This document shows positions 2,778-44,328 of a DNA stretch of 64,000 bases, piece by piece. Origin of the DNA: Arthrobacter sp. FW306-2-2C-D06B (lineage in GTDB: Bacteria > Actinomycetota > Actinomycetes > Actinomycetales > Micrococcaceae). Location: NCBI RefSeq assembly GCF_021789175.1, contig NZ_CP084560.1:2480001-2544000 (forward strand), given 5' to 3'. The first letter of the stretch is position 1; every line of letters starts with the position of its first letter. Below the pieces are notes generated by a model, which made no database searches, had not been told where the DNA came from, and saw only the letters and a program-made list of their open reading frames with translations. The position numbers and the translations under genes were made by a program.

Positions 2778-3878
2778 ATGCGCGTTTACCCCACATTCTT
2801 CAAGCTGGCCTTCTCCTGGATGGATGCCGAGAAGGCCCACAAGATCGGCTTCCAGGCGATCCGCTACGCACACCGCTCAGGCGCAGGACGCGTCCTGGCC
2901 AAAATGACGGCCCCGCATCCCTCCCTGCGCACGGAGGCTTTCGGGCTGACGTTCCCTTCGCCCTTCGGCCTCGCGGCCGGCTTCGACAAAGAGGGCCACG
3001 GAATCGAGGCCCTCGCTGAACTGGGCTTCGGCCACGTGGAAGTAGGAACGATCACCGGCCAGGCACAGCCCGGCAACGAGAAGCCACGGCTTTTCCGCCT
3101 GATCGAGGACAAGGCCGTGATCAACCGCATGGGCTTCAACAACGACGGCGCGGCAGCCGTGGCCCCAAGGCTCAAAGCCGCGAGGGCGGCCTTGCAGCGG
3201 ACGCATTCAGGGGTTCGTCCCGTGATCGGAGTCAACATCGGCAAGACCAAGGTTGTCGAGCTCGACGACGCCGTCGAGGACTATTTGGTCAGCGCACGCA
3301 ACCTGGCACCCGCCGCCGACTATCTCGTAGTGAACGTGAGCTCGCCCAACACGCCGGGACTGCGACTGCTCCAGAACGTCGAGACGCTCCGCCCCCTCCT
3401 TCGCGCCGTCGGAGACGCCGCTGACGAATCCGCCGGCCGTCACGTGCCGCTGCTCGTCAAGATCGCGCCGGACCTGAGCGACGAAGACATCGACGACGTC
3501 GCCAGGCTCGCCTTGGACCTCAAGCTCGACGGGATTATCGCCACAAACACCACCATCGGCCGGGAAGGCCTGACTTCGGATCCGGACAAAGTGGAAGCGT
3601 GCGGCGCCGGCGGACTCTCCGGTGCGCCGCTCAAGGGGCGTTCGCTTGAGGTACTGCGCCGGCTGAAAGCTGCTGTGGGGGAGGGCCTCGTGCTCATCGC
3701 CGTCGGCGGAGTGCAGTCCGCGGCCGACGTCCAGGAGCGGCTCGATGCCGGAGCAACCCTCGTTCAGGGATACACGGCATTCCTCTACGAAGGTCCGTTC
3801 TGGGCCGCCGGCATCAACAGGGCCTTGGCCAAACGTCGCAGTCAAGCGTCGCCGCTGAGCAGGGGGACGAGCATCTGA
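2778..3878 (+). CDS. pyrD: quinone-dependent dihydroorotate dehydrogenase (class 2)
   Basis: It catalyses oxidation of dihydroorotate to orotate in pyrimidine biosynthesis, passing electrons to membrane quinone. The 366-residue protein has the N-terminal amphipathic extension typical of class 2 enzymes (residues 1-40). It also has the FMN-site segment [10 protein letters not shown], the substrate-site NRMGFNN, and [10 protein letters not shown], whose Ser is the class 2 catalytic base. Late glycine-rich phosphate-binding loops (AVGGVQSA) are present. The ATG at 2778 has an AGGA-like sequence only 3-4 nt upstream, so initiation may be weak or leaderless. A strong bidirectional terminator follows. 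Confidence 0.96.
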
Positions 3879-11314: not shown

Positions 11315-12988
11315 CTAGTGGCTAAGGCTCTTGTGCTCTTCGCCGGACTCGATGGCCTCATGGTGGCCGTGTCCGTGGGCAGCTTCAAGCTCTGCCGGCG
11401 TTGCCGGAGCAACACGGTCTTCGAAGAACCACCTGGACAACGCCGCGCGGCGTTTCTCCTTCGGGGTGACGACGCCATGCTCGTTCGGCTCGGCCGGCAA
11501 CGGGGATGGCGATTCGAAGCCCACAAGCTTGTAGTGCTTGTAGTCATCCAGTGGTGCGTGAACCTCAATGAACTCACCATGCGGCAAGCGCACGATGCGG
11601 CCCGTTTCACGGCCGTGCAGGGCAATCTCGCGGTCCTTGCGCTGCAGAGCAAGCGCCACGCGCTTCGTCACCATGAACGCGATGATCGGGCCGATGAAGA
11701 ACAGCGTGCGCAGCCAGTAAGTGACGTCGTTCAGGGCAACGTGGAAGTGCGTTGCGATGAGGTCGGAGCCGGCCGCTGCCCACATGACGCAGTACCAGGT
11801 AAACCCTGCTACGCCGATGGCAGTACGGGTAGGTGCGTTGCGGGGACGGTCCAGAACGTGGTGTTCACGGTTGTCCTTGGTAATCCAGCGTTCGATCCAC
11901 GGGTACATGAACAGCACCGTGAAAATGATGCCGGCCGGAACCAATGCAGGCAGCAGCACATTCAGCGTCAGCACGTGGCCGAAGATGATGTATTCGAAGT
12001 GGAAGTCGTTGACAACGCCAGGCATGAGTCGCAAGGCGCCATCGACGAAGCCGATGTACCAGTCGGGCTGGGTACCTGCCGACACAGGGGAGGGGTCGTA
12101 CGGCCCGTAGTTCCAGATCGGGTTGATCGTGAACATCGCAGCCATGAGTGCGACAACACCGAACACGATGAAGAAGAAGCCGCCGGCCTTTGCGGCGTAA
12201 ACCGGTCCCAGGGGGTAACCCACGACGTTGCCGTCGTTGCGTCCCGGGCCGGGGTACTGCGTGTGCTTGTGCACAACCACCATGAAGAGGTGGATGACGA
12301 TCATGAGCAGAATCATGGCCGGCACGAGCAGGATGTGCAGCACGTACAGGCGCCCGATGATGGCTGTACCCGGGAACTCGCCTCCAAAGAGGAAGAACGA
12401 TATGTACGTTCCGATCACAGGGATGGACTTGATGACACCGTCGATGATTCGCAGGCCGTTGCCGGAGAGCAGGTCATCGGGAAGCGAATATCCCGTGAAG
12501 CCTTCGGCCATGGCCAGGATGAGCAGGACGCCGCCCACCACCCAGTTCATTTCGCGCGGCTTGCGGAAAGCACCCGTGAAGAACACGCGCAGCATGTGCA
12601 CACCAAGCGATGCCACGAAGAGCAAAGCCGCCCAGTGGTGCACCTGGCGGAAGAACAAGCCACCGCGAATGTCGAAGGAAATGTTCAGCGACGAGTTGTA
12701 CGCGACGGACATTTCGACGTTGGTCAGCGGGGTGTACGAACCCGTGTAGTGGGTCTCAGCCATGGACGGGTCAAAGAAGAACGTCAGGAAGGTACCGGAC
12801 ATGAGGAGAATGACAAAGGAATACAGCGCCACCTCACCGAACATGAAGGACCAGTGGTCGGGGAAGACCTTCCGGCCGAATTCACGCAGGATTCCGGATC
12901 CGCCGACGCGCTCGTCAACGAAGTCCGTGATCCGGCCAACCTTGGTTTTGGGTACGAAGGGGACTTCAGCTGTTGATGAGGCGCTCAT
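11315..12988 (-). CDS. qcrB: cytochrome bc1 complex cytochrome b subunit
   Basis: This is the membrane core of the menaquinol-cytochrome c reductase, binding two b hemes and the quinol sites. The 557-residue protein carries QVHHWAALLF and the matching later His pair (VIHLFMVVVHKHTQ). It also carries the PxW-type Qo loop region and a long cytoplasmic C-terminal extension of about 150 residues, typical of Actinobacteria. I use the ATG at 12988, where GGGAG sits 10 nt upstream; the GTG at 12997 would have no usable spacing. It overlaps qcrA by 23 nt, showing tight coupling. Confidence 0.94.
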   Translation of the reverse strand: MSASSTAEVPFVPKTKVGRITDFVDERVGGSGILREFGRKVFPDHWSFMFGEVALYSFVILLMSGTFLTFFFDPSMAETHYTGSYTPLTNVEMSVAYNSSLNISFDIRGGLFFRQVHHWAALLFVASLGVHMLRVFFTGAFRKPREMNWVVGGVLLILAMAEGFTGYSLPDDLLSGNGLRIIDGVIKSIPVIGTYISFFLFGGEFPGTAIIGRLYVLHILLVPAMILLMIVIHLFMVVVHKHTQYPGPGRNDGNVVGYPLGPVYAAKAGGFFFIVFGVVALMAAMFTINPIWNYGPYDPSPVSAGTQPDWYIGFVDGALRLMPGVVNDFHFEYIIFGHVLTLNVLLPALVPAGIIFTVLFMYPWIERWITKDNREHHVLDRPRNAPTRTAIGVAGFTWYCVMWAAAGSDLIATHFHVALNDVTYWLRTLFFIGPIIAFMVTKRVALALQRKDREIALHGRETGRIVRLPHGEFIEVHAPLDDYKHYKLVGFESPSPLPAEPNEHGVVTPKEKRRAALSRWFFEDRVAPATPAELEAAHGHGHHEAIESGEEHKSLSH

Positions 12989-37083: not shown

Positions 37084-37173
37084 GGCAGCTGCTGCCTAGG
37101 GGATCGTGATCATGCATCAGATGCGCGCTCACGATATTACTTTACATAATGTAGATTATCGGCGTTAAAACAA

Positions 37174-37203
37174 CGGGAGTAGAATTAGCTGCGAGAACTC
37201 CCG
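37174..37203 (+). repeat. palindromic-armed site L (left of recombinase trio)
   Basis: Arms CGGGAGT (37174-37180) and ACTCCCG (37197-37203) flank the 16-nt centre AGAATTAGCTGCGAGA. A second site with the same architecture occurs at 40795-40824. It lies in the 268-bp low-GC gap between the DHFR-like gene and the recombinase start; no gene is seen in that gap. Confidence 0.7.
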
Positions 37204-37351
37204 CCCCATGACGAATCTGACGTTTCCGCAGGTCAGCCGGGCTTTGCCCGGGGCGCGCATTCCTCACGCCAACGTCTGAATTTGCCCTCGGATCGCTTAT
37301 GGCTATAGGTTTCCTGCATCTAATGCATGTTTCCATGGTTTAGGGGTCGTT

Positions 37352-38476
37352 GTGAATGATGCCGTTCCAGGTTTTGTCCCGCGGATGCTGGTGGCTCCGG
37401 ACATCGGGCTGTTCCGGGCTGATGAACGGGTTTTCATGGCCATGCTTGATGGCTGGCGCGCGCAGATGCTTGCCCGCGGCCTCACGACAGAGACCATCAA
37501 GCAGCGCTGCCAGCTGCTGGAGCGTTTTCAGCGCTTCACAGGGGAATTTCCGTGGCAATGGGGTCCGGCGGACATCGATGATTTCCTGGGCGATCTGCGC
37601 TCGGGCGAAAAGCCAATCAGCCTGAAGACACTGCGCTCGTACAGTAACGCCGTGGCAATGTTCTGTTCATTCCTGACGCACCCTGGCTATGGCTGGGGCG
37701 AGTTCTGCGAACGGACCTTCGGCGATATACCTAGCCAGATCTGCTTCGAGTGGAACATGCCACGGCACACCACCGAGGATGCCGTCCCGGCGAAGAAACG
37801 CTCGTTCACCAAGGCGGAACTGCAGCGGCTTTTCGACCACCTCGATGACCTGGTCGACCAGGAATACGCCGCCGGCAGCAAGCGCTGGCTGCCCTTGTTC
37901 CGCGACTCGGTAGCATTCAAGGTCTGCTATGCCTACGGGCTTCGCCGGCGCGAAATGACCATGCTGGACCTGGAAGACTTCGGCCCGAACCCGCACCTGA
38001 GCGACTACGGACGGTTCGGAGCAGTCCAGATCCGGTTCGCCAAGGGCACGGCAGGCTCAGGACCCAGACGGCGCACCGTGTTGACCGTGCCGGAATTCGA
38101 TTGGGTCGTGGACCAGCTCAAGACCTGGACAACCGGCGGCATGCGTCAACAGTTCCCGACAGCTGAACGGTCATCGGCCCTTTGGCCCAGCGAGCGTGGC
38201 ACCCGGATGTCCTTGGGCTCCTTCGGGGACGCGTTCGCCGCCGCACGGGACGCCGTCGGCCTGCCCCAGGAGCTGGGACTCCATTGCCTCAGACACTCCT
38301 ACGTGACCCACCTGATCGAAGCCGGCTACGATGCGGCCTTCGTGCAGACACAGGTTGGGCACTCCTACGCCTCAACCACCGGGCTCTACACCTCGGTATC
38401 GTCGGACTTCAAGCAGAAAACCGTGCAACAGATGATTGCACGCCGCATCGCGAACTTGGAGGACCCAGATGCCTGA
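37352..38476 (+). CDS. tyrosine recombinase/transposase A of the trio
   Basis: This 374-residue site-specific recombinase has an N-terminal SAM-like DNA-binding domain (about residues 30-130). Its catalytic domain has all expected residues: Arg198 in YGLRRREM, a Lys in FAKGTAGSG, His311 and Arg314 in HCLRHSY, His337 in VGHSY and the nucleophile candidate Tyr346 in TTGLYTSV. It should cut and rejoin DNA through a phosphotyrosine. The GTG start at 37352 has GGGG 6-7 nt upstream. It overlaps the next gene by 8 nt. Similar in size to Tn554 TnpA. Confidence 0.92.
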   Translation: MNDAVPGFVPRMLVAPDIGLFRADERVFMAMLDGWRAQMLARGLTTETIKQRCQLLERFQRFTGEFPWQWGPADIDDFLGDLRSGEKPISLKTLRSYSNAVAMFCSFLTHPGYGWGEFCERTFGDIPSQICFEWNMPRHTTEDAVPAKKRSFTKAELQRLFDHLDDLVDQEYAAGSKRWLPLFRDSVAFKVCYAYGLRRREMTMLDLEDFGPNPHLSDYGRFGAVQIRFAKGTAGSGPRRRTVLTVPEFDWVVDQLKTWTTGGMRQQFPTAERSSALWPSERGTRMSLGSFGDAFAAARDAVGLPQELGLHCLRHSYVTHLIEAGYDAAFVQTQVGHSYASTTGLYTSVSSDFKQKTVQQMIARRIANLEDPDA

Positions 38477-38822
38477 ACAGCGCCGGATCGGCTACCGCTG
38501 GAACCTGCGAGCCCTGATGGCAAAGCAAAACCTCTGGAAGACCACCGAACTGATGCCGCTCCTGAAATCCCGTGGCATCAACCTCTCCGAAAGCCAGGTC
38601 TACAGGCTGGTCACCTCCACACCGGAGCGCATTCCGGCCAGGACATTCGCCGCGCTCTGCGACATCCTGGACTGCACACCAAACGACTTATTCGAACCTT
38701 TCGTGGAAATGCGCGCCGCGGCGACAGCCAACGCCCCCAAGCGCAGCGAAGACCTCGGCATCCAACCAGGCAACCCCATCGCCCGACGGGTCCGGCTCGT
38801 CACTTCCGAAGACGGTGAGTAG
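38469..38822 (+). CDS. small XRE-type helix-turn-helix protein of the trio
   Basis: This 117-residue protein has a Cro/C1-type helix-turn-helix (LMPLLKSRGINLSESQVYRL then ARTFAALCDILDCTPNDLFE, about residues 25-75) and a basic flexible tail. In recombinase trios a small protein of this size sits next to or between the recombinases and may set direction or repress the operon. It overlaps both neighbours by 8 nt, so all three genes are translationally coupled. Confidence 0.88.
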   Translation: MPEQRRIGYRWNLRALMAKQNLWKTTELMPLLKSRGINLSESQVYRLVTSTPERIPARTFAALCDILDCTPNDLFEPFVEMRAAATANAPKRSEDLGIQPGNPIARRVRLVTSEDGE

Positions 38823-40269
38823 GCCCCGCAAGGCAGAGGACCCCATTCGCTGGCCGGTCCCCTGCGGCCGCTGCAGCCAACACCACCAAACGGTCGCGCG
38901 CTGGCCCGACGGCGGAGTATGCGGCTACTGCTATCAGCAAGCAAAACGCACCCGCGGGGTCTGCGGATGCGGCCACGAAGGCATCCTGCCCGGAATCATC
39001 GATGAACAACCGGCATGCCGGAGATGCTCAGGCGTTCGACTCAATATCGACTGCCAGGGCTGCGGCGCCGAAGACGAACTCTATACCGGTGCACGCTGCT
39101 GGACCTGCGTCCTCGGCGACATCGTGGACAACCTACTAACCAACCCGGCCACGGGAATCATGGCCACCGAACTGATCCCGCTGGCGGCGGCACTGAAGAC
39201 CATGAAACGGGCCAACAGCGGCATGACCTGGATCCGGCAAAAACACGTCACCAACTTCCTGCGAAACCTCGCCACTGCACCCAAAATCAGCCACGATACG
39301 TTCGATGAACTGCCCGACTCACGCACCCGCGAATACGTCCGGGGACTGCTCATCGAACACGGCGTGCTCCCCCAGCGAAATGCTTTCCTGACGCGCTACG
39401 ACGGATGGGCCACCCAAGCCCTGGAACGCGTCAGCGACCCACAGAACCTTGACGTGATCCGCCGCTACATCCGCTGGCACCACCAGCGACGCATGAACCT
39501 CATGGAGGAAGTCTCCCGCGGCACCTTCCTCCGCGCAAAACAGGAAGTCACCGTCGCCATCGACCTCCTGAACTGGCTCACCGGCCACGACATCAAACTG
39601 CCCGAGCTGCAGCAGTCCCACCTGGACGTCTGGCAAGCCGAAGGACCCACGACGAGACGCATCGCTGAGCGCTTCCTCAAATGGGCCATCAAAACCAAGG
39701 CCGCCCCAGCGGGGCTCGCCATCATCCCGCACCGCCGCGGCACCAGCCACCGATTGCCCAAGCCCGGCCAGGACCAAGCACTCCAAAAAGTCATCCACAC
39801 CAACGGACTGGAGACCCGTGACCGGGCCGCCGCGATCCTCATCCTCGTCTTCGGACAACAAGCCGAAAACATCGCACGGCTAACCTGGGACGAAGTCACC
39901 GTTACCGACGACCTAGTCACCATCCAGCTCGGCAGTATCCAGATCGCGTTGCCAGACCCTCTTGCGCAACCTTGGCGGGAGCTCGCCGCAAACCCGGGCC
40001 ACGAACTGACCGCAGCACACCCCAACACCAAATGGGTGTTCCGCGGAGCATCACCCGGACGCCACATCAACCCAGGACACCTCACGACCCGCCTCAGCAA
40101 GCTCTTCAGCACCCGCGCCGCACGCCTGGGAACACTCCACGAACTCACCAAACTCGCCCCCGTCGCCATCATCGCCGAAACCCTCGGCTACTCCCCCACC
40201 ACCATCGAACGCCACGCCACAGACTCAGCCGCCGCCTACGCCAAATACATCGCGGCACGGCGCTCATGA
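38815..40269 (+). CDS. zinc-rich, catalytically degenerate recombinase-like protein of the trio
   Basis: This 484-residue protein starts at GTG 38815, overlapping the HTH gene by 8 nt. The N-terminal ~100 residues hold about a dozen Cys in CxxC pairs (CGRC, CGYC, CGCG, CRRC, CQGC, CWTC), suggesting two or three zinc ribbons. The middle and C-terminal parts follow a tyrosine-recombinase outline, but the catalytic positions are lost. FGQQAENIARLTW replaces the Arg-containing helix, TLHELTKLAPVAI stands where HxxR should be, and no LGH-Y pair with a nucleophile is convincing. It probably acts as a non-catalytic DNA-binding partner. The frame opens earlier at 38572, but that part shadows the HTH gene. 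Confidence 0.82.
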   Translation: MSRPRKAEDPIRWPVPCGRCSQHHQTVARWPDGGVCGYCYQQAKRTRGVCGCGHEGILPGIIDEQPACRRCSGVRLNIDCQGCGAEDELYTGARCWTCVLGDIVDNLLTNPATGIMATELIPLAAALKTMKRANSGMTWIRQKHVTNFLRNLATAPKISHDTFDELPDSRTREYVRGLLIEHGVLPQRNAFLTRYDGWATQALERVSDPQNLDVIRRYIRWHHQRRMNLMEEVSRGTFLRAKQEVTVAIDLLNWLTGHDIKLPELQQSHLDVWQAEGPTTRRIAERFLKWAIKTKAAPAGLAIIPHRRGTSHRLPKPGQDQALQKVIHTNGLETRDRAAAILILVFGQQAENIARLTWDEVTVTDDLVTIQLGSIQIALPDPLAQPWRELAANPGHELTAAHPNTKWVFRGASPGRHINPGHLTTRLSKLFSTRAARLGTLHELTKLAPVAIIAETLGYSPTTIERHATDSAAAYAKYIAARRS

Positions 40270-40283
40270 CGGAGAATGAAGCA

Positions 40284-40694
40284 ATGAATGAGGTGACTAT
40301 TGGACATCAAGGCACACTCATTTTCCGCGTCGAGAACACCCGCGGCAGTCGAAACGGGCAAATCGAGAACCTGACAGTTACCGCACATCTGCCCGGTCTC
40401 AACGCCACAAAGGACGTCTGGGATTTCGACGGTTGGTCGGGGTTGCTGTCCTTCTTTGAGGAACTTGCAAGCAATTGGCGAGGCTGGGACGGGGAGAAAG
40501 ACTTCGACTCCATAGAAGGCGACCTTACATTGACGGCGAAGCACGACGGCCACGTTCGCATAGCCTTTGAGCTCAGAGAATACGCCGGCGCAACTCCATG
40601 GGCGGCCAAAGGAGAACTCACCTTGGATCCAGGCGAAGAACTGACCGCCGCAGCGCAGTCACTTCGAGACCTGTTGGCCGGCACCAAGCACTAA
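40284..40694 (+). CDS. DUF6228 family protein, possible immunity protein
   Basis: This 136-residue protein contains the pattern DVWDFDGWSGLLSFFEELAS followed by NWRGWDGEKDF and a closing ELTLDPGEEL, as in the actinobacterial DUF6228 family. That family often occurs near polymorphic-toxin loci and is thought to include immunity proteins. GGAG lies 9 nt before the ATG at 40284. An alternative ATG at 40266 overlaps the recombinase stop (ATGA). It is the first passenger-like gene after the trio and ends 86 nt before site R1. Confidence 0.78.
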   Translation: MNEVTIGHQGTLIFRVENTRGSRNGQIENLTVTAHLPGLNATKDVWDFDGWSGLLSFFEELASNWRGWDGEKDFDSIEGDLTLTAKHDGHVRIAFELREYAGATPWAAKGELTLDPGEELTAAAQSLRDLLAGTKH

Positions 40695-40780
40695 GCGACC
40701 GAAGCGGAACATGTCGGTTTCAGGCTGACTCCAGCCATCCGTCGAAAACCGCCTACTCCCGGCTCACGAATACCCGTGCA

Positions 40781-40824
40781 TGCCAGTTAAGTAGGACGAG
40801 TAGAAGTAGATGAGAGAACTCGTC
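40781..40824 (+). repeat. palindromic-armed site R1
   Basis: Arms GACGAGT (40795-40801) and ACTCGTC (40818-40824) flank AGAAGTAGATGAGAGA, which is identical to the site L centre at 13 of 16 positions. The three outer arm positions differ from site L and are compensated on the other arm. The upstream TGCCAGTTAA also aligns with site R3. It lies 7 nt from the stop of the SMI1/KNR4-type gene. Confidence 0.7.
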
Positions 40825-40831
40825 TCAGAAA

Positions 40832-41386
40832 CTAAACCCATCGGCCCTCCGCTAAATCAGACCAAAAGTCGACACGATAGGTCGGTAACTTCACGTCGGG
40901 CTCCCGGAAAAACTCAGCCGCGAAGTAGGCAGCAAGATCACTGCCGTAATAGATCACGTCCGTCTGGTAGACAGAAAAAACGGGACTTCCCGTCGGCGAT
41001 GGCGCTCCTGGCAGAAAACGGTGCGAGTAGATAGGAATCAGCGTCGGCACGAATTGCATATGTTCCCGCGCTGCCTGCAAAGCCGTAGCTGTTTCACCTG
41101 GCCTTTCGCCCCATTCATCGGGCCAGAAGGCATTCTGCTCGACGTCAAACAGGACTCCTTCCAAGGGCCAGCTAAGCCGCTGACGAATCCCGTCAGGCTC
41201 CCCCAACCAATCAACCCATTTAGGGCCGAGCGGAGTAGCCAGACTCAGCAGCCCCGCATGATCAGGGCTGAACTTGATACCAAACTGCTGCTCAACGTCG
41301 GCGATCTCGTCAGTAGTTAAACCAGGACCCAACGGAATATGCGCCTCGTAAAGCGTCTCAATGGCTGTTTCGACGATAGAACCCAC
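40832..41386 (-). CDS. SMI1/KNR4-type (SUKH) family protein, possible immunity protein
   Basis: This 184-residue protein has the SUKH-like N-terminus LTTDEIADVEQQFGIKFSPD and the core WVDWLGEPDGIRQRLSWPLE. It also has GVLFDVEQNAFWPDEWGERP and a mid-protein FVPTLIPIYSHRFLPG. SUKH proteins are common immunity proteins to secreted or contact-dependent toxins, although no toxin gene is visible nearby. The gene is opposite in strand to its neighbours and fits tightly between site R1 and an inverted half-site, like a cassette. The start is GTG 41384-41386, with no strong ribosome site. Confidence 0.82.
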   Translation of the reverse strand: MGSIVETAIETLYEAHIPLGPGLTTDEIADVEQQFGIKFSPDHAGLLSLATPLGPKWVDWLGEPDGIRQRLSWPLEGVLFDVEQNAFWPDEWGERPGETATALQAAREHMQFVPTLIPIYSHRFLPGAPSPTGSPVFSVYQTDVIYYGSDLAAYFAAEFFREPDVKLPTYRVDFWSDLAEGRWV

Positions 41387-41398
41387 GCCTGAATCATG

Positions 41399-41415
41399 TC
41401 ATCTACTACTCGTCC
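41399..41415 (-). repeat. inverted half-copy of the R1 site (R2')
   Basis: Read on the minus strand, GGACGAGTAGTAGATGA matches R1 GGACGAGTAG(AAG)TAGATGA with a 3-nt deletion and no right arm. It lies 12 bp upstream of the SMI1/KNR4-type gene start, so that gene is bracketed by R1 and an inverted copy. Confidence 0.55.
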
Positions 41416-41433
41416 CACATCAACACGTCTCGC

Positions 41434-41470
41434 TGCCAGTCAATCAGCGGGAGTGGAAGTGGCTGCGCTT
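41434..41470 (+). repeat. degenerate site R3 (right boundary candidate)
   Basis: TGCCAGTCAATCAG followed by CGGGAGTGGAAGTGGCTGCG aligns with site L (17 of 20 in the second block) and with R1 (TGCCAGT exact). The right arm is not conserved. It is the rightmost copy seen. Confidence 0.5.
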
Positions 41471-42006: not shown

Positions 42007-44328
42007 GTGAGTCGAGGAAGATTCGAACCAGACACGGGCAACCCGCCGGGACAGACAAGGCGCTGGTCGGCGTTCGCCAAAACCGGTGCTCTGGCAGCCG
42101 CCGGCGCCCTGGCCATCTCCGCTATCGGGACCGGTGGCATCCTGGCGGCGCCTGCAGCGCAGGCCGCAACTGACCTGCCGGGCATGCACCAATCGGGCAT
42201 CACCGTCCAGGCTCCGCCGCCCCGGGCGTTTGGGGATTGGTCGATGTGGCTGGGATCCCTGAACCTGAACGGTGCCACCGGGGGTCCCACGGCTTTTTGC
42301 TTCGACGTCGGGATCCCGGCCGGACCGGCCGGATCCGGGGCGGTGGGTTCCCTCGGAAACCCGCAGCTTAACTACGCGATTCAGAAGTACCAGAGTGACC
42401 CTGCAAACCATGCAGCCTTGGCGTACCTCACTCACGAGCTCGCGGATCCGAGGTTCAACGTGCCGTGGAACGGCATTGGGGCCCCCTACCCTAACCTTCG
42501 GGATTCATCTGATCCGCAAATGCCCGGTGTCCGCGCCCGGGCCGCGGCGATGCTCGCCGACGCCCAGGCCAATTCCGGCCCGTATTCCACGCAACCTAAA
42601 CTCGCGATGGACGCTAACGGTCGCGGCGGCACAATCACCTCGACAGAGCTGGTTTCCGCAGCCGGGAACAAGCTGAGCGGCTTCTCGGCGCGCGCCATCC
42701 TGAACGGCCCCGCCGTGTGGGCAGGAACGAACTCCCAGGCAGTCAACCTCCGTACCGGAGATCAGCTCGGCTTCGCGGCGACCGGAAACGGAACAGTTTC
42801 CGTGACGCTGACGATCGACGCACCCGGGTCGTCGGCTACCACCTATTCGGTGCCCGGCTTCCAGAACCTTCTCGTTGCCGGCGGGGCTCAACCCGTCGCG
42901 GGAACGTCAGCCGACGCCAACGTGATCTTCGATTTCCAACCCGAAGCGACCTCGACCGCCGGCCGGTTTGTCGAGGGCGGCCAGCCCCTGATGGACGTCC
43001 TGCACGCGAACACGTCCACGGGAAACACCAATGACTGGGCTTTCGTGAACGGCGGCAACGTGCCTGCCCGCTTCGACGTCGACTGGTATTACAGCCCGGT
43101 CAGACTCGCCCCGAACGCCCAGATCCCGGCTGCAGTCGTGAAGGTTGCCTCCGGAACTGGCACCGCAACGGGACCGGGTGACGTGAAGGTGACCGGCGAC
43201 AAAAACGCGGACATGGCCGGCTATTACTACCCTGTGGCCCGTTTCTCAAAGGGGGCCCAGCCCGCCGAGCTGCAGCAGTACTTCCGTGCTGACTGGACCG
43301 CTGGCTTCAATGATCCCCATGAGGAGACGATCCAGAAGTACCAGCCGGCGGTGGTGACCAAGGCATCGGCCGTTGAAGACGGCAAGATCTACGACATCAT
43401 CACCGTGACCGGCAACGAGCCCGGCAAGGAACTCTCCGTGACCACGGACCTGGTTCTGACCTCCGCTGCCCCGATTGCCGGCGGCACCGACACCGTTCCT
43501 GCTGATGCCGACGTCATCGGTACCGTCACCACGAAGGTCACCGGGAACGGCGAATTCAAGACCGCGGCCGTCGAGGTTCCATGGGAGAAAATCGTCGCCG
43601 AGAAATGGTCCAAAGGCCTGAATGCCAATCTGTACTTCTCCGAGAAGATCGACGGTACCGAGTCCACCAAGGCGTGGGACGGCAAGGAACTGCTGCCCAA
43701 CGAAACTGTACCGATCAAGAAACCTTCGATCATCACCAAAGCCTCCGGGAACGGCACCGTGCCGCTCCTGGCCCATGACATCGGAATAGTCTCGGGCACC
43801 ATCCCTTCCGGCACCGGCATCAAAGTCACCACCAAAGTGAACCAGTACAAGTTTGACGACTCGACCGACGGCTCCGCCCAGGCCGTCTGCGCCAACCCGT
43901 CCTGGTCCTCCCCGGACCAGGACGTCACCGGTGCGGGGGCAATCACCTACCCGAGCCACACCATCGTCCACAAAGGCACCTACGGATACGTCGAGGAACT
44001 TAAGCTGACGATCGATAAGGGCGAGGGCAAGGAACCATTCACCGCGCAGTTGCATAAGGGCAACTGCGGCGAGAAGAACGAAACTGTCATCGCCTTCCCA
44101 GAAGCCGTCACCGTTACCCCAGACAAGCCGGCACTGATGGTCAACACCGGATTCGCGCCAACCACTGGCAGCGCACAAGAAGCCGGGCCGAACATGCCGC
44201 TGCTGATGACGGGCGGCACCGCCTTCGCACTGGCTCTCCTCGGCGGAGCAGGGCTGTTGTACCGCAAACGCTTCGACAACCTCCGAGTTGAAACGGATAA
44301 CGTCCAAGCGGACGAACATGCTGACTAG
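42007..44328 (+). CDS. large sortase-anchored surface protein with VaFE-like repeats
   Basis: This 773-residue secreted protein has a long signal peptide (about 1-57, ending AAQAA). The N-terminal domain contains AFCFDVG and QLNYAIQKYQ, reminiscent of actinobacterial thioester/adhesin heads. Two tandem beta-rich domains (about 445-560 and 565-710) begin with PAVVTKASAVEDGKIYDII and PSIITKASGNGTVPLLAHDI; they resemble VaFE surface repeats. The tail holds PLLMTGG, a membrane helix (TAFALALLGGAGLLY) and KRFDN. LLMTG is a divergent LPxTG. GTG 42007 has GAAGGGA upstream. A dedicated sortase-like gene follows, so the pair likely builds an anchored adhesin. Confidence 0.8.
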   Translation: MSRGRFEPDTGNPPGQTRRWSAFAKTGALAAAGALAISAIGTGGILAAPAAQAATDLPGMHQSGITVQAPPPRAFGDWSMWLGSLNLNGATGGPTAFCFDVGIPAGPAGSGAVGSLGNPQLNYAIQKYQSDPANHAALAYLTHELADPRFNVPWNGIGAPYPNLRDSSDPQMPGVRARAAAMLADAQANSGPYSTQPKLAMDANGRGGTITSTELVSAAGNKLSGFSARAILNGPAVWAGTNSQAVNLRTGDQLGFAATGNGTVSVTLTIDAPGSSATTYSVPGFQNLLVAGGAQPVAGTSADANVIFDFQPEATSTAGRFVEGGQPLMDVLHANTSTGNTNDWAFVNGGNVPARFDVDWYYSPVRLAPNAQIPAAVVKVASGTGTATGPGDVKVTGDKNADMAGYYYPVARFSKGAQPAELQQYFRADWTAGFNDPHEETIQKYQPAVVTKASAVEDGKIYDIITVTGNEPGKELSVTTDLVLTSAAPIAGGTDTVPADADVIGTVTTKVTGNGEFKTAAVEVPWEKIVAEKWSKGLNANLYFSEKIDGTESTKAWDGKELLPNETVPIKKPSIITKASGNGTVPLLAHDIGIVSGTIPSGTGIKVTTKVNQYKFDDSTDGSAQAVCANPSWSSPDQDVTGAGAITYPSHTIVHKGTYGYVEELKLTIDKGEGKEPFTAQLHKGNCGEKNETVIAFPEAVTVTPDKPALMVNTGFAPTTGSAQEAGPNMPLLMTGGTAFALALLGGAGLLYRKRFDNLRVETDNVQADEHAD

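Follow-up and report, generated by a model that had tools for sequence, protein, structure and literature searches.

The 64,000-nt stretch of the Arthrobacter sp. FW306-2-2C-D06B chromosome analyzed here (the window) very probably carries site-specific mobile units that are stacked beside the chromosomal dif and docked at the outer edge of its XerC arm. The dif site is the one that bacteria use to separate joined chromosomes, and it is very widespread where chromosomes are circular. Sequence comparisons support the anatomy of the units, their boundaries, their association with dif, the presence of identical dispersed copies, and a link between the type of their palindromic arms and the clade of their recombinase. 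Which protein binds which motif, the formation of a circle, movement in trans, and the order of insertion are steps that we infer.

A stack of units beside dif

The dif site (37139–37166) reads AACGCCGATAATCTACATTATGTAAAGT on the minus strand and is left whole by the insertion. Counted by eye, it is identical at 24 of 28 positions to the sequence suggested as the Frankia alni dif in PMC3025954. A dif pattern with at most one mismatch has a single occurrence in this genome and is present in 60 of 61 genomes of the genus (several times in some). GC skew, calculated in 4-kb steps, has positive values between 12 and 36 kb, negative values between 36 and 56 kb, and small values elsewhere; it changes sign near dif, as expected near a replication terminus.

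Two palindromic sites, L (37174–37203) and R1 (40795–40824), were singled out in a first-pass annotation of the window, which did not notice their link to dif. As described there, both consist of 7-bp arms around a 16-nt centre; the centres are identical at 13 of 16 positions, and each of the three arm differences is compensated on the opposite arm. A 22-nt core pattern of these sites, searched with up to three mismatches, matches the window twice (without a mismatch in either case), while 100 shuffles gave no match. In the whole 4.56-Mb genome, the same search returns L and R1 only, and a reversed control pattern returns nothing. The two sites were taken as a pair enclosing one element with a recombinase, a helix–turn–helix (HTH) protein, a degenerate partner, and a DUF6228 gene. 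All these genes are present, the partner as a weakly matching recombinase-like protein, and L and R1 do resemble recombination sites that serve a recombinase trio with passengers, but they are not the two ends of one element. That possibility is ruled out by a right end at 40755–40788. This right end belongs to the first unit, element A, and R1 comes directly after it. R1 therefore marks the left end of a second unit, and the two sites are the left ends of adjacent units of sister types.

Element A (37168–40788, plus strand, 3621 bp) has ends that are conserved among relatives whose outer flanks differ. It is preceded by the 6-bp left junction spacer GCGTTA (37162–37167, plus strand), which in our model would derive from the target; its 6-bp register after TTATCG rests on comparisons of occupied and empty sites in other genomes. 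Site L, with arms CGGGAGT and ACTCCCG, forms the left end. The trio follows on the same strand: the tyrosine recombinase TR1 (37352–38476; PF00589, 8.7e-17), with its catalytic residues present; an HTH protein of the Cro/C1 type (38469–38822; PF13443, 1e-14); and TR3 (38815–40269), with a cysteine-rich N-terminus and a degenerate tyrosine-recombinase-like part (PF00589 at 18.4 bits, under the cut-off of 27.1). The passenger gene, also on the plus strand (40266–40694, with a start that may be 40284), encodes the DUF6228 protein (PF19739, 5.9e-29), which has a weak second match to a WapI-like immunity family and has copies that are 68–69% identical in loci L043 and L084. The right end reads ACTCCCG, then CCCG, and then the spacer CCAGTT on the plus strand.

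Unit B (40789–41441, plus strand, 653 bp) contains no recombinase gene, and has matching ends of the GACG type. Its left end is site R1 (arms GACGAGT and ACTCGTC), of the same type as the left ends of B-clade trios, and its right end (41408–41441, plus strand) reads ACTCGTC, then CGTC, and then CCAGTC. Between them, a minus-strand gene (40832–41386) encodes a 184-aa passenger without a Pfam match, which we take to be SMI1-like. Homologues are present in L024, L032, L066, and L071, and those in L024 and L032 precede B-type right ends. Unit B may be a shortened B element that lost its trio. Directly after it lies a third left end, of the CGGG type, truncated and missing its inner arm (41442–41467, plus strand). 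Beyond the stack, the first 1 kb of a 773-aa gene (42007–44328) is 84–91% identical in L032, L034, and L053.

Element ends, junctions and dif as the probable target

TR1 relatives taken from genome contigs gave 25 loci. In 18 of these, a left site (up to four mismatches) lies 173–179 nt upstream of the TR1 start; L045 and L047 carry more diverged left ends at the same place, and the other five are fragments, are rearranged, or have no left site. The sequence outside the left site differs between related loci. The sequence of the right end, ACTCCCG..GAATA-CCCG-TGCATG-CCAGTT, became apparent from short contigs that start and stop at the element's own ends (L033, L035, and L036). The two ends of a unit differ: the left end consists of an outer arm, the 16-nt centre, and an inner arm, and the right end of an outer motif, a core motif, and a 6-bp spacer. 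The 6 bp on the right hardly vary between elements, most of which have CCAGT followed by T, C, or G. Locus L034 holds two tandem units of ~139 bp (11976–12253), hardly gene-sized, whose left and right ends are of different type.

The junctions are precise where copies and empty sites can be compared. Genome G163 carries three copies that are identical over the 3,238 bp compared, except that one differs at its first 3 bases, which belong to the spacer. They stand at three different dif-like sequences: a consensus-matching dif and a second sequence on contig 1, and a third on contig 3. A comparison of related genomes with and without the insertion, proposed in the first-pass annotation, yields two occupied/empty pairs that fit insertion with a 6-bp spacer. 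The right flank of L049 aligns with the empty L062 (77% over 640 columns), beginning at the base that directly follows the spacer, and the left 6 bp of L049 equal those of the empty site. The flank of L131 is in register with the empty L210 and L211 when the 6-bp spacer is allowed for, with homology from 7–8 bases beyond it (75% over ~600 columns). A circle may carry the right-hand spacer along.

Relatives in Arthrobacter, Sinomonas, Kocuria, Pseudonocardia, and Rhodococcus adjoin dif or dif-like sequences. Among 99 TR1 genes in 98 loci (a few loci are counted twice), 91 have at least 400 nt of upstream DNA, and 54 of these 91 have a dif-like sequence (0–4 mismatches) within 600 nt upstream, against 0 of 91 after base shuffling. 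Removal of duplicates, short matches, and matches with stops leaves 88 distinct TR1s for a tree: 27 on the XerC side of dif, 21 on the XerD side, 32 without dif, and eight with too little upstream DNA. All 27 XerC-side TR1s fall into a single clade (33 rows, SH-aLRT support of 100) that has no XerD-side members. The other six rows of this clade comprise four with short upstream DNA and two without dif, and in the latter two loci the left site was not found either. XerD-side TR1s belong to two other groups of the tree (18 and three), and their left ends appear by eye as nested palindromes without a clean consensus. Both sides are occupied in six loci (L034, L039, L088, L089, L091, and L097), where two divergent TR1 genes stand back to back with dif between them; trio genes are annotated in the four plasmid ones. 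In the window, a palindrome on the XerD side of dif, TGCATCAGATGC (37108–37138, minus strand), may be the vestige of a left end, given its likeness by eye to the flanks of XerD-side trios at other loci; no trio genes remain on this side. At E 1e-40, 190 plasmid records contain TR1 relatives; at E 1e-60, 48 of 197 family genomes do. Related TR1 genes without a nearby dif-like sequence include L148–L153 and most of L162–L187 (not L163 or L186), and these probably use another target.

Searching the left-site motif in 295 family genomes returned 31 places in 21 genomes (five places in four genomes for a reversed control pattern). Of 30 places examined, 23 directly follow a dif-like sequence (at most 6/20 mismatches) or a right end (at most four mismatches), four have seven mismatches to dif, and three have neither neighbour. 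At 3000 random positions, the rate is 0.2% for dif-like sequences and 0 for right ends. The expectation that copies lie next to recombinase trios held in part: the motif recurs beside trios in other Actinobacteria, but many copies have no trio gene within ~1.5 kb.

Insertion at dif, together with the Xer-like character of TR1, could also mean that the units exploit the host in the manner of IMEX, with XerC and XerD integrating the unit and the trio acting as a passenger or regulator. We consider this very unlikely: the units join dif at the outer edge of its XerC arm and not at its centre, the end motifs track the TR1 clade, and no second dif is formed at the right ends (12–13 of 20 mismatches at the three compared), unlike with LME-1. 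We give hardly any credence to the idea that the dif-like sequence is the element's own attachment or resolution site, instead of its target. Dif-like sequences do also adjoin plasmid trios, but copies identical over 3.2 kb have differing dif-like flanks, and the 60 genomes of the genus with a dif include empty ones.

Arm motifs and recombinase clades

Each element carries the arm motif four times (outer and inner in the right end, then outer and inner in the left end), and all four copies differ between the A and B types. In this order, they read CCCG, CCCG, CGGG, and CCCG in type A, and CGTC, CGTC, GACG, and CGTC in type B. GACG arms accompany recombinases that are ~62% identical to the TR1 of the window. 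On the TR1 tree, B-type arms coincide with one subclade (nine rows, support of 98) and A-type arms with its sister (24 rows, support of 95). The outer motif of A-type right ends (16 distinct sequences) is CCCG in 22 of 22, and the inner motif is CCCG in 16 and has one change in six. For B-type right ends (nine trios plus unit B of the window; eight distinct sequences), the outer motif is CGTC in nine of ten and the inner one in all ten. These counts take one row per locus, with L129–L133 excluded and L040 represented by its second right end, and use ends placed relative to TR1; nearest-neighbour pairing put false left ends inside TR1. At 38 XerC-side left ends, the arms are exactly complementary in 23 and have one mismatch in 15, as scored by a script that chose the best palindrome, thereby favouring matches. 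The 38 derive from 39 rows (L055 was dropped as a mis-hit) and include repeats: L129, L132, and L133 equal L038, L086, and L040, and L130 and L131 are copies. A site in L003 (1501–1522) has a B-type left arm and an A-type right arm, and is a possible recombinant.

The covarying arms had been taken to indicate selection for pairing or dimer symmetry, and the symmetry is indeed kept while the sequence changes. Such arms might act as folded single-stranded sites, like the attC of integrons, in which they pair within one strand and the recombinase acts on the hairpin. Although complementarity of the 7-bp arms fits this, folding is not needed to account for it: the motif is also present in the right end ~3.5 kb away, where it differs in step between the types and has no local partner. 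Besides, each unit has two different ends and not a single attC, and TR1 reaches 51.6 bits where the cut-off for integron integrases is 265. Because the motif recurs at four places, including the distant right end, and follows the clade, recognition by a protein explains it better than folding, which we judge to be very unlikely. We reject an integron/attC reading of the units on account of the two unlike ends per unit and the recurrence of the arm motif in the right end. As far as sequence can tell, the paired arms resemble sites at which each unit's own recombinase docks, not folded hairpins.

Several points weigh against a stack of mobile units with a four-motif code. We infer movement from a mobile-looking system, and none was observed. 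The A/B difference is a single split on the TR1 tree, so the joint change of all four motifs is one evolutionary event. Some motif letters were fixed in the patterns used to search for right ends, a bias towards agreement. Mixed units also occur: the two small L034 units have B-type left and A-type right ends, L134 contains a further unit with an A-type left arm and a B-type right end, and in L040, as in its second copy L133, the A-type right end used is preceded by one of B type. Automated end pairing of 41 units gave 22 AAA, seven BBB, and 12 other combinations; in several of these 12, the left end is a false one within TR1. A right end was sought in L042, L046, and L095 but not found, and comparison of the L128 flank with relatives places another left-end remnant at the junction position. 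With 32 of 88 TR1 relatives lacking a nearby dif-like sequence, docking at dif is not general to the wider family. Finally, the motif copies without a trio suit solo ends and trio-less cassettes, but are also the counterpoint that the first-pass annotation itself had named.

Proposed mechanism and relation to known systems

We read R198, K231, H311, R314, H337, and Y346 of TR1 as its catalytic residues; they are invariant in ten aligned TR1s of four lineages. TR3 (484 aa) has conserved cysteines, and its catalytic motifs appear replaced in seven sequences compared by eye. Its relatives number 444 at E 1e-5, and the 120 listed are named integrase, Fis family regulator, or hypothetical, or are unnamed; the NCBI name 'Fis family transcriptional regulator' is probably a misnomer for a degenerate recombinase. 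In a fold search of the PDB, 48 of the 50 matches of TR3 listed are tyrosine recombinases, and only one of 80 has E < 0.001; as the model is poor (mean pLDDT of 71.7, pTM of 0.38), these matches serve as supporting evidence only. Upstream of TR1 lies a palindrome, TGCATCTAATGCA, that resembles the centre of some left ends (L088 and L095), and the HTH protein may bind both.

The region between TR3 and the right end contains zero to six open reading frames (ORFs) of at least 70 aa in 32 elements, called mechanically, so that some are pieces of TR3 or of other transposons. Scanning 44 proteins (43 of the 44 ORFs plus the unit B gene) against Pfam and PADLOC, with the first 25 families listed for each, gave matches mostly to one protein apiece. 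The matches listed include DUF6228/WapI-like proteins, the type VI secretion system immunity protein Tdi1, DUF6881, leucine-rich repeats, and Pycsar components. Cyclase and Pycsar effector genes lie immediately left of a plasmid-borne B element in L092 (4428–5757).

In the mechanism that we propose, TR1, assisted by the HTH protein and the catalytically dead TR3, would excise the unit as a circle. The joint of this circle would be a weak inverted repeat (CCCGTGCATG and AAACAACGGG here, 6/10 complementary) around a 6-bp spacer. Subsequently, the circle would insert at TTATCG-NNNNNN in the XerC arm, with dif staying whole. A new unit would enter beside dif and shift older ones outward; dif would act like the docking port of an integron, since each new unit would enter next to it. 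A recombinase whose arm type matches might move trio-less units, such as unit B, in trans.

In design, these units are closest to Tn554, SEs, and GInts, but they have a different gene set and dif as their target. Our literature search found no trio elements beside dif in Actinobacteria, though it mostly lacked subscription papers and is weak evidence of novelty. Gamma-mobile-trio islands also have three genes, including a tyrosine recombinase, and carry defence or offence cargo. Membership in that group was rejected on the NCBIfam cut-offs for GmtX, GmtY, and GmtZ: only GmtY matches TR1, at 16.8 bits against 340. Nor does TR1 classify as XerC or XerD, with 81 bits against the XerC equivalog cut-off of 335.15 in NCBIfam. 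RITs have three recombinases with a catalytic motif, and integrons an IntI-type integrase and a single attC per cassette; neither arrangement is found here. SEs share a recombinase-fold partner without the RHRY motif (Tfp), a small auxiliary protein, and imperfect inverted repeats around a 6-bp spacer. Unlike the three genes and one catalytic recombinase here, they carry intA, tfp, intB, and srap, with two catalytic recombinases, and are described in Gammaproteobacteria. The nearly constant right spacer CCAGT would fit SE-like, strand-biased circle formation.

Tn554 and its actinobacterial relatives, as described in PMC3414803, are likewise small, have tyrosine recombinases and a third protein, and reside on actinobacterial plasmids and chromosomes. 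For Tn554-related elements, a 6-bp footprint is reported (PMC10214605), and the two occupied/empty comparisons here agree with a 6-bp junction spacer. According to PMC3414803, they differ in having two recombinases with a possible catalytic motif, one of 611–828 aa, and often TnpC. The elements studied here instead have a single catalytic recombinase of 374 aa, an HTH protein, and a catalytically dead partner of 484 aa, and their target is dif. By eye, TR3 has no catalytic motifs, which leaves one catalytic recombinase against the two that, with TnpC, characterize the Tn554 family. GInts have four genes (ginABCD), an operon that the gene content here does not match, and dif is not described as their target in the accessible part of PMC5385486. 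LME-1, at the Legionella dif, and IMEX resemble our units in docking at dif with a whole dif kept (PMC9765430). According to the same source, however, the att of LME-1 is a 22-bp piece of dif on which XerL of the host acts, with a modified dif arising downstream; the right junctions examined here have no dif, so dif-like att sequences on both sides are not seen. Helicobacter pylori TnPZ, as described in PMC2731543, also pair Xer-like recombinase types with end-sequence types, but are large, carry type IV secretion genes, and target a heptanucleotide.

We further consider a broader proposal, which we see as evenly poised: that dif is two-faced in Actinobacteria. Separate trio lineages would read its XerC or XerD face and insert at the outer edge, leaving dif unbroken, and would form stacks at the replication terminus that are shared by trio-less immunity and defence cassettes. 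They would constitute a distinct transposon class (one catalytic recombinase, an HTH protein, and a dead recombinase), in which a four-motif end code decides which cassette a given recombinase moves.

With the stack reading, an unexplained pair of palindromes becomes a mobile-looking system whose ends are defined, whose target is known, and whose specificity code can be tested. Since the A and B sets are matched, with recombinases ~62% identical and four motifs changed together, swaps between them offer a direct test of how these recombinases recognize DNA, and elements that dock at dif could yield a simple integration tool for Actinobacteria. The small immunity-like genes gathered at the terminus would be explained by an element family for which dif is a harmless and renewable landing site, open from either side.

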